A stretch of 10,197 bases of DNA, from assembly GCA_016209865.1 (NCBI GenBank), contig JACQVL010000125.1, positions 1 through 10,197 of the forward strand, in the 5' to 3' direction. A model generated the notes under the pieces. That model was not told where the DNA came from. It worked only from the letters and a program-made list of their open reading frames with translations, and did no database searches. Below, in pieces: positions 1 through 9,856 of this stretch. The position numbers and the translations under genes were made by a program. Source of the DNA: Candidatus Latescibacterota bacterium (GTDB taxonomy: Bacteria; JAAXHH01; JACQVL01). Every line of letters starts with the position of its first letter. Within the stretch, counting starts at the first letter, position 1.

Positions 1-362
1 ACGGACGCGCAGAACCAGGCTAACCGCGCCAGGCTGATGCCCGCCCCCGCCTGCACGTGGAGGCCTTCCTGCCGGATGGACCAGAGGGTGCCCGGCACCA
101 CCCCGTGTCCCTGAATCTTGATCACCACCCCGCGGAACCCCGCATCGCTGAACAACACGTTGCTCCCGTTCCCCAGAACGATCCACGGGATCGAACGCGC
201 GGTCACCCATTCGACCAATCCTCGCAGCTCGTCCACGGTCTCCGGAAGGCACAACAGATCAGCCGGCCCCCCGATCCGGAAGGTGGTATGGTCGGCGAGA
301 GGTTCCGACCGGCGGACTTTGTGGCCTCCGAGTTGTCGCTCAAGTTCTGCGCAAGCATCCAT
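1..362 (-). CDS. murB: UDP-N-acetylenolpyruvoylglucosamine reductase MurB (N-terminal part, runs off the window)
   Basis: MurB is the cytoplasmic FAD enzyme that uses NADPH to reduce UDP-GlcNAc-enolpyruvate to UDP-MurNAc, the second committed step of peptidoglycan precursor synthesis. Reading the minus strand from 362 gives an open frame of 120 codons to the window edge. It shows the family signatures TTFRIGGPAD at residues 26-35, LGNGSNVLFSD at about 63-73, and AGAGISLARLAW at about 105-116, all from the N-terminal FAD-binding (PCMH-type) fold. The substrate-binding domain and catalytic C-terminus lie outside the window. The start ATG (362-360) shares one base with the murC stop, giving TGATG. 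No Shine-Dalgarno-like purine run is visible just upstream, so translation probably depends on termination-reinitiation from murC. MurB following MurC is a common dcw order. Identity is firm; the 3' end is unseen. Confidence 0.95.
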   Translation of the reverse strand, partial: MDACAELERQLGGHKVRRSEPLADHTTFRIGGPADLLCLPETVDELRGLVEWVTARSIPWIVLGNGSNVLFSDAGFRGVVIKIQGHGVVPGTLWSIRQEGLHVQAGAGISLARLAWFCAS

Positions 363-1738
363 CAGCGTGTGCTGTCCAGCAGGCGAAGCAGTGCGTCCCC
401 CACCTCGGCGATATCACCCGCGCCGAGCGTCATCACGATATCCCCTGGCTGAAGCCGGTCGGCCAGCCTGCCGGCGACCGCGTCCTTCTCAGGGATGTAC
501 AGGACATCCTGCCCGCCATGCCGGCGCGCCGCCTGGGCGACCAGGTCGCCGGTCACGCCAGGGATCGGCGCTTCGCGGGCGGGGTAGATGTCAGTCACCA
601 CCGTCGTGTGCGCCTGCGCTAAGGCCCGGCCGAACGCGTCCGCAAAATCACGCGTGCGGGTGTACAGGTGCGGCTGGAAGATGGCGATGATCCGCCGTCC
701 CGTCCCGTCCGCGATCCCCCGGAGCGTCGCCTCGATCTCGGTCGGGTGATGGGCGTAGTCATCGACCACGGTGATCCCGCCACGCTCTCCCTTGATCTCG
801 AACCGGCGCTCCACGCCGGTGAACCGTTCTAACGCCGCTCTCGTCCGCTCGAACGGGATGGCCAGGTACTGCCCGACGGCGACCGCGGCGAGCGCGTTCG
901 TGATGTTGTGCCGGCCGGGAATCCGCAGCCGGATGCGGCCGAGCGCCGCCCCATGTGCCTGAACGGTGAACTCGGCGCGCAGGCCGTCAAGCCGGATGTC
1001 GTCCGCGTGCACATCCACCCCTGCGGACAGGCCGTACGTGACCCGCCGGCGCCGGATCTGCGGGACGATCCGCCGGACGCCGTCATCATCCCCGCAGACG
1101 ACGACGGGACGGGTCATCGGGACGGTGTTCGCGAATGCGGTAAACGCGCGTTCGATCGCGTCCAACGTGCCGTAACAGTCCAGGTGGTCGGCCTCGACGT
1201 TCGTGATGACCGCGACCGTCGGGGACAGGTGGAGGAACGACTGGTCGAACTCGTCCGCTTCAGCCACGACGTACGGCCCATGCCCGAGTCGCGCGTTCGA
1301 CTCGATCTCACGGACGATCCCGCCGACGATGAGCGTCGGGTCGAGTCCGGCCTCCAGGAACGTCAGGCCGATCATGGCGGTCGTGGTCGTCTTCCCGTGC
1401 GTCCCGGCGACCGCGATCCCGTACCGTCCCCGGAGGAATTCCGCCAGCAGGTCCGCCCGGGTGACGGTGAAGACTCCCCGTTCACGGGCCGCCGACAGCT
1501 CCGGATTCTCCGGACGAATGGCCGCCGAATAGACGACCACATCGGCCGGTCCGAGATGCGCCGCGTCATGGCCTTCATAGATGGTGGCTCCCAGTCGCCC
1601 CAGCCGATCCGTCACCGGAGAACGCTTGAGGTCCGACCCGGACACCTCGTACTGGAGCCGCAGGAGGAGCTCGGCCAGCCCGCTCATCCCGATGCCCCCG
1701 ATGCCGATCAGATGGAATCGCCGGATACCGTTAAACAT
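362..1738 (-). CDS. murC: UDP-N-acetylmuramate--L-alanine ligase MurC
   Basis: MurC is the ATP-dependent cytoplasmic ligase that adds L-alanine to UDP-MurNAc, the first amino acid of the stem peptide. The 458-residue product matches the usual MurC length. Visible motifs are the N-terminal UDP-binding loop GIGGIGMSG (12-20), the ATP P-loop GTHGKTTTT (112-120; the His before GKT is typical of MurC), AEADEFDQSF (159-168), the DDYAHHPTE signature (326-334) and LGAGDI (438-443). The start chosen is the ATG at 1738, ahead of FNGIRRFHLIG. It is preceded by GGAGG with a 7-nt spacer, and that Shine-Dalgarno sequence lies inside the last codons of ftsW. A longer open frame reaching 1903 exists, but its extra N-terminus is a shadow of ftsW. 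The start overlaps the ftsW stop by 8 bp, so the two genes are tightly coupled. murG, which usually sits between ftsW and murC, is absent. Confidence 0.97.
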   Translation of the reverse strand: MFNGIRRFHLIGIGGIGMSGLAELLLRLQYEVSGSDLKRSPVTDRLGRLGATIYEGHDAAHLGPADVVVYSAAIRPENPELSAARERGVFTVTRADLLAEFLRGRYGIAVAGTHGKTTTTAMIGLTFLEAGLDPTLIVGGIVREIESNARLGHGPYVVAEADEFDQSFLHLSPTVAVITNVEADHLDCYGTLDAIERAFTAFANTVPMTRPVVVCGDDDGVRRIVPQIRRRRVTYGLSAGVDVHADDIRLDGLRAEFTVQAHGAALGRIRLRIPGRHNITNALAAVAVGQYLAIPFERTRAALERFTGVERRFEIKGERGGITVVDDYAHHPTEIEATLRGIADGTGRRIIAIFQPHLYTRTRDFADAFGRALAQAHTTVVTDIYPAREAPIPGVTGDLVAQAARRHGGQDVLYIPEKDAVAGRLADRLQPGDIVMTLGAGDIAEVGDALLRLLDSTR

Positions 1739-2873
1739 ACTGCAGCCTCCGACGCCGGCCGTGGCTCCGTGCAGAGATGTTGAGCAACATCCCGATCCCG
1801 GCCAGACTGAACAACAACCATGACCCTCCGTAACTGATGAACGGGAGGGGAAGGCCGGTCGTCGGGATGAGACCGGTGACGACCGCGATGTTGAGGACGA
1901 CATGGGTTGAAATCAGCACCGTGATCCCGGTCGCTAAGAGAAACCCGTACAGGTCGGGGGCGCGCCGCGCGATCCGAATCCCGCGCCAGGCCAGGATGAG
2001 GAAGAGCAGCAGCACCGCGATCGCCCCGATGAAGCCCAGTTCTTCCCCGACGATGGCGAAGATGAAATCGGTGTGGGGATCGGGCAGGAACAGGAACTTC
2101 TGCCGGCTCTGACCGAGGCCAACCCCCGACCAGCCGCCCGACCCTAACGCCACCAGCCCCTGCTTGAGCTGGTAGTCCGCGCCAGGTAAGAGGGCCCCCT
2201 GATCGACATTCCCGGTAAGGTTCTGAAGATACGACAGGATGCGCTGCCGGCTGTGAGGGGTGGTGTGGAGCTTGATGCACACCAGGGGCAGGGCCACGAG
2301 GCCTGCGGCGATCAGGTGCGGGAGCCTGACCCGGCCGACGAACAGCACGGCGACCGTCGTCAGGACGAGCACCATCGCCGTGCCAAAGTCCGGCTGCTTG
2401 CCGATGAGGCCGAAGCTGAGTCCGAGCAAGACCAGGTAGGGCAGGAGTCCCGGCACGAATTTCTGGATCAAGTCCTGCCGCCGGTCGAGCGAATCGGCCA
2501 GGTACAGCACCATCGCCAGTTTCATCAGCTCGGCGGGCTGAAAGTTGAACGCGAAGAGCTTCAGGGTGCGGTTCGCCCCGCGGATTTCCAGGCCCAGGCC
2601 GGGGACGAACACCAGGACGAGGCAGACGAAGGACACGCAGAGCAGGGGGAACGACCACCGGCGGAGCTTATGGTAATCGAATTGCGCGAAGAAGAGCATC
2701 AGACCGATGCCCAGGACGACGCGGATCAGGTGGCGCTTCAGGAAGAAGCTGCTCTCCCCATGGAACATCTCTTCCGCCATCGCAAAGCTGGCGCTGTACA
2801 CCATCACCGACCCGAAGCCGACCAGCATCAGGGTCGTGATGAGCAGGGGCAGATCGATCCGGTATCGCTCCAT
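1731..2873 (-). CDS. ftsW: Peptidoglycan polymerase FtsW (SEDS family)
   Basis: FtsW is the divisome SEDS glycosyltransferase that polymerises lipid II into septal glycan with its partner FtsI. The 380-residue protein is strongly hydrophobic, with about ten membrane segments beginning near residue 9. Family motifs are VYSAS (25-29), FNFQPAELMKLA (109-120), KQPDFGTAMVL (159-169), YQLKQGLVALGSGGWSGVGLGQS (234-256 region), PHTDFIFAIVGEELG with the conserved Asp at 269, and GLPLPFISYGGS (340-351). FtsW is favoured over RodA by its place among ftsI, murE, murF and murC. The ATG at 2873 (MERYRID) is chosen because AAGGGAG lies just upstream; the open frame extends to 2981, but that extra stretch is murF in another frame. 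The loop at 216-233 (LQNLTGNVDQGALLPGAD) lacks the usual N/DPW-x-D-P element, and GGSS is GGSW here. It starts 11 bp after murF, with no mraY or murD between. Confidence 0.95.
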   Translation of the reverse strand: MERYRIDLPLLITTLMLVGFGSVMVYSASFAMAEEMFHGESSFFLKRHLIRVVLGIGLMLFFAQFDYHKLRRWSFPLLCVSFVCLVLVFVPGLGLEIRGANRTLKLFAFNFQPAELMKLAMVLYLADSLDRRQDLIQKFVPGLLPYLVLLGLSFGLIGKQPDFGTAMVLVLTTVAVLFVGRVRLPHLIAAGLVALPLVCIKLHTTPHSRQRILSYLQNLTGNVDQGALLPGADYQLKQGLVALGSGGWSGVGLGQSRQKFLFLPDPHTDFIFAIVGEELGFIGAIAVLLLFLILAWRGIRIARRAPDLYGFLLATGITVLISTHVVLNIAVVTGLIPTTGLPLPFISYGGSWLLFSLAGIGMLLNISARSHGRRRRLQYV

Positions 2874-2884
2874 TTCACGCTCCC

Positions 2885-4282
2885 TTACCCTGTGCCGGCC
2901 GCGGTGAGGGCGGCGACGATGTCTTCCATCTTCATCCCGCGCGATCCTTTGATTAAGATGATGTCGCCGGGTTTCGCACACGCCCGGATGCGGACGCTCG
3001 CGTCGTCGTTCTTCTGGCAGACCAGGATGGCACGCTCGTCCATGCCCGCCTCTCGCGCGCCGTCTGCGATCTGGCGCGCCCGTTCTCCGACGGTGATCAA
3101 CACATCCGCCGCCCCGGCGACCGCCCGGCCGACCTCACGGTGGGCCTGCTCGCTCTCCGCGCCGAGTTCGAGCATGTCGCCCATCACCGCGATCCGGCGT
3201 CCGGTTCTGGCGTTCGCTAAGGTGCGAAGCGCGGCGCGGGCGGAGACCGGGTTGGCGTTGTACGCGTCGTTGATCAGATGGAGGCCGTCCACGACACGAT
3301 ATTCCATCCGCATGGCAAACGGCTGCACCCCCGCCAGGGCCTCCTGCATCGCTCCGACGTCTACGCCGAACACGCGACCGACGGCGATCGCGGCCAGGGC
3401 GTTGGCGACGTGATGGCAGCCCGGGATGTTCAGGCGGAACGCCGGGCCATCAGTCAGCCGGAACGTCGTCCCGGCCAACTCCATCTCGATGTCCACCGCC
3501 CGGACGGCGGCGGCGGGCGTCAGGCCGAACGTGAGCAGCCGGGCGGTCGTGCGGTGCCGCTGTGCCATCACCAGGGGATCATCCGCGTTCAGGATGGCGG
3601 TGCCGTCATCGGGAAGACTGTCGAGGAGTTCCCCCTTGGCGCGGGCGACCGCCTCGACCGAGCCGAGGAACTCGAGATGGGCCGGACCGACGTTGGTGAT
3701 GACTCCAACGGTCGGTCTGGCCATCCGGGCCAGGCGGGTCAGCTCGTCCGGCTGGCTCATCGACAACTCCAGGACGGCCACCTCGTATGCCGGGCCGAGC
3801 TGAAACAGGACGAGCGGGACGCCGACCTGGCTGTTCAAGTTCCCCGGAGTTTTCAGCGTCCGGAACCGCTTCGACAGGATGGCGGCGGTCATCTCCTTCG
3901 TCGTCGTCTTCCCGTTCGTCCCGGTGATGCCGACGACGGGGAGTGCAAACCGCGAGCGGTACGCAGCCGCCAGCGTCTGGAGCGCCATGAGCGGGTCGGG
4001 GACGACGATCACGGGAGCCTGCTGTGAGATCTCCCTCGCGTGTTCCCGGTACCACGTCTCGGCCACGATCGCCCCGGCCGCCCCGGCGGCTAACGCGGCG
4101 GGGACAAAGTCGTGACCGTCGAACCGGTCCCCGGCCAGGGCGACGAAGAGTTCATCCTGTTTGACCGTCCGGGAATCAGTCGAGACGCCGACCACCGGAC
4201 GCACCCGGCGATCAGCCGTCTCGTCTGAGAGGGTCCCGGCCACGGTCTCCACGACCTGGCCGATGGTGAAGAGAGAGTTCAT
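2885..4282 (-). CDS. murF: UDP-MurNAc-tripeptide--D-Ala-D-Ala ligase MurF
   Basis: MurF uses ATP to join D-Ala-D-Ala to UDP-MurNAc-tripeptide, completing the cytoplasmic pentapeptide precursor. The 465-residue length is normal. The N-terminal substrate domain is seen in VGVSTDSRTVKQDELFVAL (31-49). The central ATPase domain has GTNGKTTTKE (121-130), PGNLNSQVGVPL (146-157) and VITNVGPAHLEFLGS (194-208). The C-terminal domain has LINDAYNANP (336-345), the MurF-specific signature, followed by IAVMGDMLELG (364-374) and IKGSRGMKMED (444-454). The ATG at 4282 overlaps the murE stop as ATGA. The bases before it read CCTCCTCTC, which is like the anti-Shine-Dalgarno and not a ribosome site, so the gene probably relies on ribosomes arriving from murE. 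The next gene is ftsW; the usual following pair, mraY and murD, is missing. Confidence 0.97.
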   Translation of the reverse strand: MNSLFTIGQVVETVAGTLSDETADRRVRPVVGVSTDSRTVKQDELFVALAGDRFDGHDFVPAALAAGAAGAIVAETWYREHAREISQQAPVIVVPDPLMALQTLAAAYRSRFALPVVGITGTNGKTTTKEMTAAILSKRFRTLKTPGNLNSQVGVPLVLFQLGPAYEVAVLELSMSQPDELTRLARMARPTVGVITNVGPAHLEFLGSVEAVARAKGELLDSLPDDGTAILNADDPLVMAQRHRTTARLLTFGLTPAAAVRAVDIEMELAGTTFRLTDGPAFRLNIPGCHHVANALAAIAVGRVFGVDVGAMQEALAGVQPFAMRMEYRVVDGLHLINDAYNANPVSARAALRTLANARTGRRIAVMGDMLELGAESEQAHREVGRAVAGAADVLITVGERARQIADGAREAGMDERAILVCQKNDDASVRIRACAKPGDIILIKGSRGMKMEDIVAALTAAGTG

Positions 4283-5736
4283 GAGAGGAGGTCTCGCACG
4301 ACGTCCCGGTCATCAAAATGGATGCGTTCCGACCCGATGTCCTGGTACGGTTCGTGTCCCTTCCCCGCGATCACCACCGTATCCCCGTCCCGAGCCAGGC
4401 TGAGCGCTTCCGCGATGGCTTCCCGCCGGTCGACGATCGACCGGCATCGGGCGGAGGGTTCTACGCCTCTTTCGATCTCCCGGATGATCACGCCCGGGTC
4501 TTCCGAGCGTGGGTTGTCGGAGGTGATGATGACGAGGTCCGCCGTCCGGGAGGCGATCGCCCCCATCTCCGGCCGTTTGCCCCGGTCGCGATCCCCGCCG
4601 CAGCCGAAGACGGCGATCAGCCGGCCAGCCGTCCACTCCCGCACCACGGCGAGGAGCGCGCGCAGGGCATCCGGGGTATGGGCATAATCGACGACCACGG
4701 TGAAGGGCTGGCCGCAATCGACCCGTTCCAACCGGCCCGGGATCGTTTCGACCGCCTCAAGCCCGGCCACGATCGCAGCGTGGGGGAGGCGCAGCGTCAG
4801 GCCAACCCCGAGGGCGGCCAAGGCATTCAACACATTGAACCGGCCGAGCAGCCGCAGGTGGACACGCCAGGTCCCGTCCGGGGTCCGGACGGGCAGGACG
4901 GTGCCGCGCGGGGTGACCTCCACAGTTCCGTCGACGGACACTTCGGCCGTCCGGTCGAAGCCGTAAGTCAGCGCCGTGCCAGCCGCTTCGGCGATGAACG
5001 ACGCGCTCGACGGATCATCCCGGTTGATGACCGCCGTCCCGTCCGGACTCAGAAACTCATGGAACAGCCGGAGTTTAGCCATACGGTACGCCTCGAACGT
5101 GCGATGGAAGTCGAGATGGTCTCGCGTGAGGTTCGTCAGTGCGGCCACCTGAAACTGCAAACCGTACACCCGGTTGAGGGCGAGGGCGTGGGAGGAAACC
5201 TCCATCACCGCGTAGCGCCCGCCCCGGTCGGCGATCATGCGCAGAAGGGCCTGGAGTTGAGTCGGGTACGGCGTCGTATGGGTGTAGTCCATGGGCAACG
5301 CAGACCCGTTCAGACGGTAGCCGAGCGTCCCGATCAGGCCGGTGCTCTGACCGTGTGCGCGCAGGATCGACTCCACCAGATGGGTGACGGTTGTCTTCCC
5401 GTTCGTCCCGGTGATCCCGACCAGGGTCAGGGCACGGGCCGGATGGCCGTAGACCCGGTCGGCCAACAGGGCCAGAGCGCGGTTTGAGTCGGGGACGACC
5501 ACGGTCGTCACAGCGGGAACACACGTCGGGCGTTCCTGCACGACCGCCACGGCACCGCGTTCGACGGCGGCTGGGATGTAGACGTGCCCGTCATGGCCGG
5601 ACGGCTCCCGGATGGCCACGAAGACATCTCCCGGTTCGATGAGCCGGGAGTCATGGGTGACCCGTCGGACCCTGACGTCCTGGCGTCCGGTGATGGTTTT
5701 CTCGTCAAGCGCGTCGAGCAAGTCGTTCAGCATCAT
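4279..5736 (-). CDS. murE: UDP-MurNAc-L-Ala-D-Glu--meso-diaminopimelate ligase MurE
   Basis: MurE is the ATP-dependent ligase that adds the third residue of the stem peptide to UDP-MurNAc-L-Ala-D-Glu. The 485-residue product has the three Mur-ligase domains. The N-terminal UDP-binding part contains THDSRLIEPGDVFVAI (27-42). The central ATPase has GITGTNGKTTVTH (107-119), MEVSSHALALNRV (178-190), LTRDHLDFH (203-211) and a candidate carbamylated lysine, Lys221, in MAKLRLF. The C-terminal domain has VVVDYAHTPDAL (347-358), FGCGGDRDRGKRPEM (377-391) and SDNPRSEDP (406-414). The DNPR form is the one associated with meso-diaminopimelate rather than L-lysine, so a DAP-type wall is inferred. Two ATGs are adjacent (5736 and 5733) and either could be used; no clear Shine-Dalgarno sequence is visible. 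It follows ftsI after a 41-bp gap that holds a hairpin, and overlaps murF by 4 bp. Confidence 0.97.
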   Translation of the reverse strand: MMLNDLLDALDEKTITGRQDVRVRRVTHDSRLIEPGDVFVAIREPSGHDGHVYIPAAVERGAVAVVQERPTCVPAVTTVVVPDSNRALALLADRVYGHPARALTLVGITGTNGKTTVTHLVESILRAHGQSTGLIGTLGYRLNGSALPMDYTHTTPYPTQLQALLRMIADRGGRYAVMEVSSHALALNRVYGLQFQVAALTNLTRDHLDFHRTFEAYRMAKLRLFHEFLSPDGTAVINRDDPSSASFIAEAAGTALTYGFDRTAEVSVDGTVEVTPRGTVLPVRTPDGTWRVHLRLLGRFNVLNALAALGVGLTLRLPHAAIVAGLEAVETIPGRLERVDCGQPFTVVVDYAHTPDALRALLAVVREWTAGRLIAVFGCGGDRDRGKRPEMGAIASRTADLVIITSDNPRSEDPGVIIREIERGVEPSARCRSIVDRREAIAEALSLARDGDTVVIAGKGHEPYQDIGSERIHFDDRDVVRDLLS

Positions 5737-5765: not shown

Positions 5766-5785
5766 CCCCTTACTGGATCAAGGGG
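5766..5785 (-). other. Hairpin across the ftsI stop, in the ftsI-murE gap
   Basis: CCCCTT (5766-5771) and AAGGGG (5780-5785) form a perfect 6-bp inverted repeat around an 8-base loop. It spans the ftsI stop codon (5780-5778). A second pairing, CTGGA (5773-5777) with TCCAG (5786-5790), overlaps it and would exclude it. There is no T-tract on the downstream (minus-strand) side, so this is not an intrinsic terminator. This is the largest gap inside the operon. A role in mRNA processing or in setting murE translation is only inference; chance occurrence is possible. Confidence 0.4.
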
Positions 5786-7904
5786 TCCAGGACGATTCGC
5801 GCGGCGATGAAGAGATGAGCGCGATCGTGTCGATCGGACGGCACTCCAGCAGGCACCAATCACCGGGCACGATCAGCGTCCCTGGGGCCGGGATTTGACG
5901 AACGACCAGTCCTTTCCCTTTGACTTTGGCTTCGATGCCTTCCTGGGCCAGCCGGCTGACAGCTTGCCGGAGGCTGAATCCGATCACAGACGGGATGCGG
6001 ACGGTATTGCCCGGGAGTCCGTCGGTCTTGCTCTGAGTCCACAGCGGCCGGATTTCGGGGTCGATCGCGCTCATCAGCCCGTGACGGAGGGATGCGCTGA
6101 GGTCGAACGCCTGGGCGGTGGTGACCGTCTCCCGTGGGGCGGGGCGGAGCACCGCCTGGTAGAGCGGGCGGTCGCCCGTCTGCTTCGGGGGCGTCGTGAC
6201 CGGACTCTTCGGGAGGTTGACGATCCGCTCCATCATCTTGCGGAAGGCCGGAGCCGACACCTGGGCCCCGTAGTAGCCGATCGTGGGTTCATCGACGACG
6301 ATCAGCGCCGCGATCTGGGGGGTCTCAGCCGGGAAGAAGCCGATGAAGGACGACATATAGTTCTTGGTGTAGCCCCGGCCGTTCGTTTTCGCTTTCCAGG
6401 CGGTCCCCGTCTTCCCGGCGACGTCGTAGCCGAGGACAGCGGCATTCTTGCCCGTCCCGTTCACCACGACGCCTCGAAAGATGCCGGTCAGCGTCCGGGC
6501 GGTTTTCGGGGACATCGCCCGCCGGATGACGCGGGGTTGGACGACGCGGAATGACCCGGTGCTGTCGATAATGGCTTTGACTACATGGGGTTCCATCAGG
6601 AGACCGTCATTCGCCACGGTGGTGTACGCCATGAGCAGTTGGAGGGCGGTGACCGAAACCCCGTAGCCGATCGCCATGGTGGGGAGGGAGGTCGCAGACC
6701 AGGCAGTCGGGTTGAGGAGGACGCCTCGCGCCTCGCCGGGCAGGTCGATCCCGGTCGTGGAGCCGACCCCGAGCGCCCGGGCGGATTCGTAAAACCGCCG
6801 ATTGCCGAGTTGCTGGGCGATCTTGATCGTCCCCACGTTGCTCGAGTGTTCGATCACCCCCTGAAAGGTCAGCGTCCCGAACCTCTCATGGTCGTGGATC
6901 GTCCGGCCGGCCACGGTGATGGCACCGTTGTTGCAGAAGATTTCATCCTCCGGTTTAAACCGGCCCGATTCCAGGGCCGCCGTGGCGGTGACGAGTTTGA
7001 ACGTCGACCCCGGTTCGTAGGTGTCGGTGATCGGGCGGAGTTTCTGGCCGGCGGTCGGGAACGCATCGTGATGGTTGGGGTCGTACGACGGCTCGCTCGC
7101 CATGGCGAGCACATCCCCCGTCGACGGCTGGACGAGGATGATCATCCCGCCTTTGGCTTGATGCTGCTCGACGGCTTCGCGCAGGGCCTCTTCAGCGATC
7201 GCCTGACAGGCGGCATCGATCGTCAACACCAGGTCCGCCCCGTGCGTCGGGGGGTGATAGTCTTCGTCTATCCGGGAATACTGCCGGCCGGCCGCATCGA
7301 CCTGCACGATCGAGAACCCCGGACTGCCGGTCAGCATGCGGTCGTAGGCGAGCTCGAGGCCGACCAACCCCTTGCCGTCGATGTTGGTGAACCCTAAGAC
7401 CTGTCCAGCGACCGGGCCAAAGGGGTATGAGCGAAGGACTTCCCGAAGGACCTGCATCCTTTTCTTCAAGGGCAGCGTCGCGTAAAGGTCGCGGATTCGG
7501 GCGCCCGTGTCGGGATCGACCCGGCGGGCCAGCCAGGAGAACGTCGAGGGGTTGGTCAGCTTGACGAGCAGCCGGTCTGCGGACTGGCCCGTCATGATGG
7601 CTATGTGTTGAGCAAGCTGGCGGAGCTGATCGACATGCAGGACATCGCTTTTCGACGGATGGATGCCGAAGGAATCCACCCCTAAGTTGGCGGCGAGCAC
7701 CCGCAGGTTCCGGTCGAGGATCATCCCCCGCTTCGGGCGGAGGACGATTTCCCGTTGTTGTTGATCCTGGGCGCGTTGCACGTACCGTTCTCGGTGGCTA
7801 AGCTGGATGATGCCGAGTCTGACTCCCAGGCCCCCCCAGAAGAGGATCCCGATCCCGGCCATCAAGTACAGACGGCGTAGTGATAGTTTAGTGACCATCT
7901 CCAT
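5778..7904 (-). CDS. ftsI: Division-specific class B penicillin-binding protein FtsI/PBP3 with C-terminal PASTA domain
   Basis: FtsI is the septal transpeptidase that cross-links glycan made by FtsW. The protein has 708 residues, longer than a plain FtsI because of a C-terminal extension. It has one N-terminal membrane anchor (about 12-32) and a PBP dimerisation/pedestal region starting with RGMILDRNLRVLAAN (59-73). The transpeptidase domain carries all three active-site motifs: STFK with nucleophile Ser300 and Lys303, SSN (354-356), and KTGT (498-501). A linker of about 70 residues leads to a single PASTA-like repeat (about 636-688, IPSVIGFSLRQAVSRL onward). The first ATG (7904) lies 8 bp after the ftsL stop, and GGAAGG lies in that gap. 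The in-frame ATG at 7898 has better spacing to it and may be the true start. PASTA-bearing class B PBPs include SpoVD and PBP2x; the neighbours ftsL and murE point to the division enzyme. Confidence 0.95.
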   Translation of the reverse strand: MEMVTKLSLRRLYLMAGIGILFWGGLGVRLGIIQLSHRERYVQRAQDQQQREIVLRPKRGMILDRNLRVLAANLGVDSFGIHPSKSDVLHVDQLRQLAQHIAIMTGQSADRLLVKLTNPSTFSWLARRVDPDTGARIRDLYATLPLKKRMQVLREVLRSYPFGPVAGQVLGFTNIDGKGLVGLELAYDRMLTGSPGFSIVQVDAAGRQYSRIDEDYHPPTHGADLVLTIDAACQAIAEEALREAVEQHQAKGGMIILVQPSTGDVLAMASEPSYDPNHHDAFPTAGQKLRPITDTYEPGSTFKLVTATAALESGRFKPEDEIFCNNGAITVAGRTIHDHERFGTLTFQGVIEHSSNVGTIKIAQQLGNRRFYESARALGVGSTTGIDLPGEARGVLLNPTAWSATSLPTMAIGYGVSVTALQLLMAYTTVANDGLLMEPHVVKAIIDSTGSFRVVQPRVIRRAMSPKTARTLTGIFRGVVVNGTGKNAAVLGYDVAGKTGTAWKAKTNGRGYTKNYMSSFIGFFPAETPQIAALIVVDEPTIGYYGAQVSAPAFRKMMERIVNLPKSPVTTPPKQTGDRPLYQAVLRPAPRETVTTAQAFDLSASLRHGLMSAIDPEIRPLWTQSKTDGLPGNTVRIPSVIGFSLRQAVSRLAQEGIEAKVKGKGLVVRQIPAPGTLIVPGDWCLLECRPIDTIALISSSPRESSWTP

Positions 7905-7912
7905 GTCCTTCC

Positions 7913-8296
7913 TTACCAGGGCACCAGACGAGCGGATGACGGCAGTGCCGCTTTCGCGGGGACGACGGGCGACGGTCGCTCCGCCACGACCTCACGGTCG
8001 GGAACGACCACGATCTGCCCGATCGCCGGATAGTCAAGTTGCAGCAGGTCATACGCGAGTGGCTGAATCACGTCGCTTTTCGACAGCCGGGCGACCTGGA
8101 GGCTCAGTCGCGTATTGTCTTCGGTCAATTTTCCCTTCCTGGCTTCAAGCCAGAGGATGTCTCGCTTTAAGTCCCGGGTCTGGACTTGCTGCCAGACGTA
8201 GATGATCCCGAACAGAGCGATCAGTCCGATGAGGCCCATCCATTGCACGAGTTTCAGGCCGCCGGGGTCTTCGCCGGGGAGGGTGACTGGTTTCAT
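7913..8296 (-). CDS. ftsL: Cell division protein FtsL (small bitopic divisome protein)
   Basis: FtsL is a small single-pass membrane protein that forms the FtsQLB complex and helps activate FtsW-FtsI. The 127-residue product has a short cytoplasmic N-terminus, one hydrophobic segment (about 17-36, beginning VQWMGLIGLIALFG), then a charged heptad-like coiled-coil stretch (about 38-75). A short conserved-looking segment DVIQPLAYDLLQLDYP (75-90) and a Pro/Ala-rich tail follow. Sequence conservation of FtsL is low, so the call rests mainly on topology, size and its place between rsmH and ftsI, which is the standard dcw position. The ATG at 8296 has GAGGA upstream with a short spacer. It starts 32 bp after rsmH, with a hairpin in the gap, and ends 8 bp before ftsI. 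Confidence 0.88.
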   Translation of the reverse strand: MKPVTLPGEDPGGLKLVQWMGLIGLIALFGIIYVWQQVQTRDLKRDILWLEARKGKLTEDNTRLSLQVARLSKSDVIQPLAYDLLQLDYPAIGQIVVVPDREVVAERPSPVVPAKAALPSSARLVPW

Positions 8297-8328: not shown

Positions 8329-9276
8329 TCAGCCGGTGCTCGTCGGGAGCCGCTCGACCATCCGGAGCTTGGCGCTCCGGGCACGAGGGTTCTGCCGGGT
8401 TTCATCCGCCGTCGGGCGGATCGGATGCTTCGTCAAGACAATGACGACCGGCCGTTGGTTGCACACGCACAGAGGGAAGTCGGGGGGGCAGGTACACCCT
8501 CGGCTGAGCTGTGCGAACCAGTGTTTCACGAGCCGGTCTTCTAAGGAGTGGTAACTGATCACCCCAAACCGTCCGCCGGGACGGAGGACAGGGAGAACGG
8601 CGGCGAGGCCGAGACGGAGGCCGTCGAGTTCATCGTTGACCGCAATCCGAAGGGCCTGAAACACCCGGGCACACGTCTTGTACAGTGGGCGATGCCCCAC
8701 GACCGCCCGGATGAGTCTGACGAGCTGGCCGGTGGTGGTAAGGGCTTCGCGCTGCCGCTCCCGGACGATCGCCCGGACGAGCGGTCGTGCCAGCCGTTCT
8801 TCTCCATAGTCGATGAGGATGCGTTCCAGGACCGCCGGAGTGGATTGATTGACGACCTCACGCGCGGTGACCGGGAAAGAGCGGTCCATGCGCATGTCTA
8901 ACGGGCCGTCTGCCAGATAACTGAACCCCCGCTCAGGGGTGTCGATCTGGTACGACGACACGCCCAGGTCGAAGAGCACCCCATCGACCGCCTCAACCCC
9001 GATCCCGTTCAACAGCGATTGAATATCGCGAAAATCACCCTGCAACAGAGTCACCTGCGTGCCCTCGCGGCTGAAGCGTTGCTGAGCCGCGCCGACCGCC
9101 TCAGTATCTTTGTCGATCCCGATCAGGCGTCCGACCGGATCGAGCCGCTCCAGGATGGCCGCCGCATGTCCACCCCCGCCGACGGTGCCATCGACATAAA
9201 TGCCAGACGGGTTGTGGACGAGTAACGCGGCGACCGTCTGGCAGAGGACGGGTTGATGCGTGTAGGGGCGAACCAC
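8329..9276 (-). CDS. rsmH: 16S rRNA (cytosine(1402)-N(4))-methyltransferase RsmH (MraW)
   Basis: RsmH uses S-adenosylmethionine to methylate N4 of C1402 of 16S rRNA in the ribosomal P site, tuning start-codon selection. The 315-residue product is normal in length. Motifs are YTHQPVL (5-11), the SAM-binding loop YVDGTVGGGGHA (27-38), IGIDKD (52-57), GVLFDLGVSSYQID with RGFSY (99-120), PLDMRMD (125-131), DYGEE (156-160), RVFQALRIAVNDEL (204-217), VISYHSLEDRLVKHWF (239-254), a cysteine cluster CTCPPDFPLCVC (261-272), and the terminal NPRARSAKLR (296-305). The start is a GTG (9276) with AGGA 6 nt upstream. It is supported because the conserved YxHxPVL motif begins only four residues in and no in-frame ATG precedes it. 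It lies 29 bp after mraZ, the near-universal order. Confidence 0.97.
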   Translation of the reverse strand: MVRPYTHQPVLCQTVAALLVHNPSGIYVDGTVGGGGHAAAILERLDPVGRLIGIDKDTEAVGAAQQRFSREGTQVTLLQGDFRDIQSLLNGIGVEAVDGVLFDLGVSSYQIDTPERGFSYLADGPLDMRMDRSFPVTAREVVNQSTPAVLERILIDYGEERLARPLVRAIVRERQREALTTTGQLVRLIRAVVGHRPLYKTCARVFQALRIAVNDELDGLRLGLAAVLPVLRPGGRFGVISYHSLEDRLVKHWFAQLSRGCTCPPDFPLCVCNQRPVVIVLTKHPIRPTADETRQNPRARSAKLRMVERLPTSTG

Positions 9277-9305: not shown

Positions 9306-9746
9306 CTACAAGAGGATCGACTCTGCGACCTCTTCATACGTCTTGCCGAACCCGGTGAGGTACTGTTCGTACACGGTCGGGTTCCAGAATTCGAAGCGAT
9401 CAAGCGTCCCGACGATCAACACCTCGTTCTCGATCTTGGCGAGGTCGAGCAACGATTTCGGGAGCGCAACCCGGCCTTGTTTGTCGATCGACACCATCGT
9501 AGCCTGGGAGGTCAGCATCCGGACAAAGTACCGTGTATTCTGTAGGGTCATCGGGAGGGCCCGGAGTTTTTCTTCAACCCGTTGCCATTCGTCTAAGGGA
9601 TAGACGAACAGACAGCCCTCTAAGCCACGCGTGACGACGAGAATCTCTTCGGTCTCGGACGGGAGGGATTTCCGGAACTTGGTCGGGATATTCACACGAC
9701 CCTTGTGATCGACCGCGTAGGTGTACGAACCCATGAAGTTCGACAC
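9306..9746 (-). CDS. mraZ: Transcriptional regulator MraZ
   Basis: MraZ is a DNA-binding protein with two SpoVT-AbrB-like domains. It forms ring oligomers and, in E. coli, represses its own dcw operon. The 146-residue product shows both repeats: YAVDHKGRVNIPTKFR (10-25) and VSIDKQGRVALPKSLL (85-100), each with the DxxGR core of the family. The start is taken as the GTG at 9746 (MSNFMGSY) because AAAGGGA lies 7 nt upstream. The in-frame ATG at 9734 would give a more typical MraZ N-terminus but leaves that ribosome site 19 nt away. It is the first gene of the operon, 29 bp before rsmH. Three GTGG-type boxes lie 86-110 bp upstream of its start and are the likely target of the protein. Confidence 0.96.
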   Translation of the reverse strand: MSNFMGSYTYAVDHKGRVNIPTKFRKSLPSETEEILVVTRGLEGCLFVYPLDEWQRVEEKLRALPMTLQNTRYFVRMLTSQATMVSIDKQGRVALPKSLLDLAKIENEVLIVGTLDRFEFWNPTVYEQYLTGFGKTYEEVAESILL

Positions 9747-9831: not shown

Positions 9832-9856
9832 ACCACATTGCCCCACTTTCTCCCAC
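9832..9856 (-). promoter_or_regulatory. MraZ operator: three direct GTGG(G/T) boxes at 10-bp spacing
   Basis: Read on the minus strand, GTGGG begins at 9856, GTGGG at 9846 and GTGGT at 9836, each separated by exactly 5 bases. Direct TGGG repeats at this 10-bp period are the known binding sites of E. coli MraZ upstream of its own gene. The middle box, in the context AAAGTGGGG, also resembles the AAAGTG-type boxes reported for Mycoplasma MraZ. They lie just downstream of the predicted -10 box, overlapping the expected transcription start, so bound MraZ would be expected to block initiation. The sequence pattern is direct; binding is inferred. Confidence 0.8.

Follow-up and report, generated by a model that had tools for sequence, protein, structure and literature searches.

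Gene content of the dcw cluster

The analysed window of 10,197 nt constitutes the entire contig C69 of a 3.75-Mb Candidatus Latescibacterota genome (G000) that is distributed over 356 contigs. Gene calls and curated models yielded, on the minus strand, the order mraZ-rsmH-ftsL-ftsI-murE-murF-ftsW-murC-murB, with murB incomplete (Table 1). The genes follow the conserved dcw order mraZ-rsmH-ftsL-ftsI-murE-murF...ftsW...murC-murB, and the three further members, mraY, murD and murG, are missing from the cluster, as an earlier reading of the sequence alone had claimed; the curated models detected no frame for any of them within the 10,197-nt window. The window contig stops within murB, and the usual continuation into ftsQ-ftsA-ftsZ is present in the order-mates G002 and G013. 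In these two genomes the cluster extends past ftsQ-ftsA-ftsZ to valS, mreB-mreC and then mrdA-rodA (the mre cluster).

Table 1. Genes and other features located in the window, with the evidence for each assignment.
Feature	Position	Strand	Evidence
mraZ	9306..9746	-	TIGR00242, 140.2 bits, over cut-off
rsmH (mraW)	8329..9276	-	TIGR00006, 329.5 bits, over cut-off
ftsL	7913..8296	-	TIGR02209, 34.9 bits, below cut-off; position between rsmH and ftsI
ftsI-type transpeptidase	5778..7904	-	PBP2/FtsI/SpoVD family matches below equivalog cut-offs; position
murE	4279..5736	-	NF001126, 549.3 bits; TIGR01085 over cut-off
murF	2885..4282	-	TIGR01143, 416.6 bits, over cut-off
ftsW	1731..2873	-	TIGR02614, 377.6 bits (cut-off 337.5)
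murC	362..1738	-	TIGR01082, 509.8 bits, over cut-off; start ATG 1738, GGAGG upstream
murB, N-terminal part, truncated by contig end	3..362	-	model match
murF/ftsW junction, 11 bp	2874..2884	-	usual place of mraY-murD; GGGAG upstream of ftsW
ftsW/murC junction, 8-bp overlap	1731..1738	-	usual place of murG; GGAGG within ftsW
MraZ-box-like site	9832..9856	-	consensus match; three GTGGG repeats, 10-bp period, one mismatch

Junctions around ftsW

The missing genes would normally lie on either side of ftsW. The murF stop codon ends at 2885 and the ftsW ATG lies at 2873, leaving 11 bp between them, while the ftsW stop codon (1731-1733) lies just beyond the murC ATG (1736-1738), and a purine-rich ribosome site precedes both ftsW and murC. 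These coordinates bear out the sequence-only reading, which had placed ftsW 11 bp after murF with a ribosome site of its own and had described an 8-bp overlap of murC with ftsW, the GGAGG of murC lying inside ftsW. It had also argued that such tight junctions spoke against an assembly join, and had proposed comparing the dcw order of close relatives. Our collection contains 16 genomes of this phylum, all within a single order, and 14 order-mates, assembled separately, share murF-ftsW-murC, with a gap of 3-12 bp between murF and ftsW wherever the start could be listed and an identical 8-bp ftsW/murC overlap in 13 of the 14. Since the same junctions recur in separately assembled genomes, an assembly join is ruled out. 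Among loci with named hosts, the relative L013 shows the same gene order, and most of the others show the common order, at least in part.

Locations of mraY, murG and murD

All three genes were found elsewhere in the same genome by profile search, as had been predicted. The gene mraY lies on contig C214 (TIGR00445, 295.8 bits against a cut-off of 192.05) and encodes the catalytic motifs DD and NxxNxxDGLDG. Immediately upstream on C214, MurG is encoded within a single 759-aa frame that also carries a HEAT_2 match (E 4.5e-15). The gene murD is located at the end of contig C317 (TIGR01087, 397.8 bits against a cut-off of 211.95). A further C-terminal piece of murD (C4:1-402) shares a stretch of about 108 aa, 86% identical, with the end of C317, and may represent either a strain variant or a second copy.

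These addresses are conserved across the order's three families, which comprise everything that the collection holds of its phylum: murG-HEAT, mraY and a gene for a VWA-domain protein adjoin rpsD-rpoA-rplQ, and murD adjoins a TIGR04282 (cofC-like) gene and a UPF0182-type gene. With both junctions and addresses recurring throughout the order, the earlier suggestion of an ancestral arrangement of the lineage holds. The VWA-domain gene directly follows mraY (L130:10485-11579 and order-mates) and is kept through the order. Two other observations were made in this genome: a WecA-like protein is encoded in a 700-aa frame with a C-terminal part resembling exopolysaccharide sugar transferases (L001:102-2201; G000:C296), and a second FtsW/RodA-type match in G000 (C241:4303-5514) is split, with an internal TAA.

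The mraZ gene of the window is preceded by MraZ-box-like repeats, as is that of each of the ten order-mates whose locus reaches that far. A consensus scan found no such repeats at the murG-mraY or murD genes, and promoter scans gave nothing above chance. In Escherichia coli, repression by MraZ extends over the stretch from mraZ to murC (PMC7761207). By analogy, mraY, murG and murD would lie outside MraZ control in this order.

The MurG-HEAT protein

The encoded protein consists of a MurG domain followed by a linker and a tail of about 250 aa that Pfam assigns to HEAT repeats (PF13646, 56.2 bits against a gathering cut-off of 27.7), and it occurs as one open frame in every member of the order with a contig covering the region. 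For the MurG part, both GT28 Pfam domains score over their cut-offs, and TIGR01133 yields 242-244 bits against a cut-off of 250.25, which is missed by all members of the order. The motif GGGTGGH is invariant in nine MurG sequences except for one G-to-A change. Foldseek searches gave MurG structures as best matches; the MurG domain matches the canonical enzymes of Pseudomonas aeruginosa (3s2u) and E. coli (1f0k), from which the protein differs by its tail of about 250 aa. An AlphaFold model, modest overall (mean pLDDT 66.8, from 9 sequences), shows the tail as an all-helical solenoid, with pLDDT values mostly of 75-92 over approximately residues 520-680, and a poorly modelled linker; Foldseek matched the tail to HEAT and alphaRep structures. 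The MraY of the order aligns over nearly its full length with E. coli MraY (8g01; E 7.5e-80), yet belongs to a separate clade (see below).

Distribution of the HEAT tail in other families

An early view that the MurG-HEAT protein was private to the phylum, based on some 28 full-length MurG frames (351-387 aa) in other lineages, was overturned by a wider search and a tail profile. This profile, run over 384 genomes, detected the HEAT tail at no less than 57 bits in 24 further genomes from 15 other families, and all other matches, unrelated HEAT proteins among them, reached at most 46 bits once fragments of these same genes are set aside. The families are denoted by kinship codes (f45, f96 and so on), and the statement that they represent several phyla rests on these codes together with distance. 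In nine of the 15 families the tail is fused to MurG, in the remaining six it forms a free-standing frame, and in 22 of the 24 genomes it lies directly upstream of mraY, both exceptions belonging to family f84. A long MurG frame in genome G107 was rejected as a further fusion; its cluster is canonical and it gave no HEAT match. In G329 (L288) the MurG and HEAT matches are separated by about 2 kb, perhaps within one 1325-aa frame, which may carry a large extra segment between the two domains.

Graded loss of genes from the dcw cluster

The dcw clusters of the HEAT-bearing genomes can be arranged according to the genes they lack. In families f45 and f171 a free HEAT frame is paired with mraY, which is the only gene missing from the dcw cluster. 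In f10 and f234, where MurG with HEAT lies together with mraY, the cluster reads murF-murD-ftsW-murC, lacking mraY and murG. In f221, f84 and this order it is reduced to murF-ftsW-murC, with murD also gone, and f54 and f151 show still further losses. Such intermediates, lacking mraY only or mraY and murG, accord with the separate losses around ftsW that the sequence-only reading had envisaged. The graded series ranks arrangements found in present-day genomes and is not a demonstrated time course.

In every HEAT-bearing genome whose dcw cluster was readable at that place, mraY is absent from it. For comparison, 20 genomes lacking the module were picked from among strong MurG matches, and mraY lies in the dcw cluster in 17 of them, the other three showing no mraY in the fetched stretch. 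Family f96 retains a MurG-like frame between ftsW and murC that scores 115 bits with TIGR01133 (cut-off 250) and has lost GGGTGGH, and f96 genomes also carry a HEAT-MurG elsewhere. These MurG-like frames, devoid of the glycine motifs for nucleotide binding, are located at L308:10250-11420, at L309:11060-12220 and in L223.

Phylogenetic trees

In the MraY tree, a single branch (100/100) separates 22 HEAT-linked sequences from 32 others. The MurG tree likewise divides 20 HEAT-linked sequences from 36 others (100/100), and the dcw MurGs of f45 and f171 fall on the dcw side. Compared with canonical MraY, the HHH motif in the HEAT-linked clade usually appears as HHT, HHA or HHS (HQT in this order), and R takes the place of N at position 20.

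The genes resident in the cluster give a different picture. Trees based on rsmH, ftsI, ftsW, murE, murF, ftsZ and ftsA scatter the HEAT-bearing genomes, and forcing these into a single clade lowers the log-likelihood by 327 units (p-AU 2.7e-6), values obtained from dcw genes alone by quick searches and with several long branches. A mixture-model run with 27 rows also scattered them, forcing at least three changes. As an internal control, the dcw MurDs of HEAT-bearing genomes do not group. All trees are unrooted and treat gain and loss alike.

The relative L013 (VGJU01000039.1), which carries the dcw arrangement of this order, is labelled Zixiibacteriota. In the dcw tree the order was not clearly joined to two other Zixibacteria loci, and the label is doubtful.

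Origin of the arrangement

The HEAT-linked MraY and MurG proteins form fully supported clades while neither the resident genes nor the MurDs of the same genomes group, which indicates that the module has a separate history and hence points to replacement. Our favoured reading, to which we assign a probability of about 0.6, is that the dcw cluster lost mraY, murG and murD before the order diversified, that mraY and murG were replaced by a murG-HEAT-mraY module, and that murD moved. Replacement, whether through transfer or ancient paralogy, is the likeliest fate of the native mraY and murG, and ordinary relocation the probable one of murD. As the route we favour transfer of the module and subsequent deletion of the native copies, with ancient paralogy as the main rival, both direction and route being our interpretation of the observed gene content, fusion, synteny and tree conflict. 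The module would have arrived by horizontal transfer, or survived as an ancient paralogue, and taken over the MraY and MurG steps, after which the dcw copies would have been deleted; across the module-bearing families the loss is graded, from mraY alone through mraY plus murG to all three genes. Lipid I and lipid II would now be produced from a second locus encoding MurG-HEAT, MraY and the VWA-domain protein, and both enzymes would have escaped the MraZ-controlled dcw promoter. Replacement should pass through a state with both complete MraY types, and no genome among those sampled carries both.

That same absence counts against ancient paralogy, according to which bacteria already had two types each of MraY and MurG at an early stage and every lineage kept one or the other. 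The deep split between HEAT-linked and dcw MraY clades and the diversity of the HEAT-bearing families would suit such a history, which unrooted trees cannot tell from transfer, but the graded dcw loss and the decaying MurG-like frame of f96 suggest a later take-over, and we regard paralogy as unlikely.

Plain relocation would mean that the native mraY and murG left the cluster in an ancestor and that MurG later gained its HEAT tail, the clades then reflecting shared descent and rapid evolution after the move. The sequence-only reading had offered stepwise relocation as one of two explanations. For murD a plain move fits, but mraY and murG fall into separate clades shared with the other module-bearing families while the resident dcw genes scatter. 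This order, f221, f54 and f151 do lie near each other in a first dcw tree, in which mraY was included, and one gain followed by vertical inheritance would explain most of these families. Families f45, f171, f234 and f80, on the other hand, are placed by their resident genes among genomes lacking HEAT, with starred support and with a single clade rejected, although their MraYs lie inside the HEAT clade at 100/100 and their MurDs do not group, all of which renders relocation of mraY and murG rather improbable. An artefact of binning or misjoined contigs, or genes absent through incompleteness of the genome (83%), might be suspected in an assembly of 356 contigs where the window is a whole contig, but is scarcely credible when the same junctions recur in 14 separate assemblies, some of 7-9 contigs, and all three genes are found at conserved addresses.

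Possible role of the HEAT domain and significance

A tether between the enzymes producing lipid I and lipid II would fit a HEAT domain that is joined to MurG and in almost all cases encoded beside mraY, and from this position and fusion we infer that the tail may act as a MurG-MraY scaffold. The solenoid would tether MurG to MraY at the membrane, and lipid I would pass directly to MurG. Where MurG is still encoded in the dcw cluster (f45 and f171) the free HEAT frame pairs with mraY, which suggests, from gene arrangement, that MraY was the first partner of the domain. More tentatively, murG-HEAT-mraY could be a mobile module acting as lipid I/II synthase, its HEAT solenoid physically coupling MraY to MurG, that has repeatedly displaced the dcw mraY and murG across phyla, a proposal that we hold to be possible rather than probable.

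Some parallels exist among known systems. MurG has been proposed as a scaffold of Mur complexes (PMC6420597), and in Bordetella pertussis a MurE-MurF fusion and MurG-centred complexes are likewise believed to bring precursors to the membrane; there, however, two enzymes are fused, whereas here MurG is joined to a non-enzymatic HEAT solenoid beside MraY. An alternative enzyme that substitutes for MurG (PMC8092295) similarly represents a second MurG-type enzyme taking over lipid II synthesis, but the available portion of that paper describes no HEAT fusion beside mraY. The history of the dcw cluster, as outlined by Léonard et al. 2022 (PMC8871954), has mainly been one of gene loss or delocalisation, and in certain phyla, as here, genes depart from a cluster that is conserved otherwise. 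Unlike the cases outlined there, our order seems to have exchanged two of the missing genes for a module with its own ancestry, and graded intermediates exist. In the open-licence literature we found no paper combining MurG or MraY with "HEAT repeat" and peptidoglycan, and none on a separately inherited murG-HEAT-mraY module. Lineage-wise loss of dcw genes was already known (PMC8871954).

Both mraY and murG are near-universal and essential and their products are antibiotic targets, and the dcw cluster has served to trace vertical descent. If the replacement is true, core wall synthesis would be swappable between lineages, trees based on mraY would mix two histories, and the MurG-HEAT protein would provide a natural candidate MurG-MraY scaffold for testing precursor channelling.
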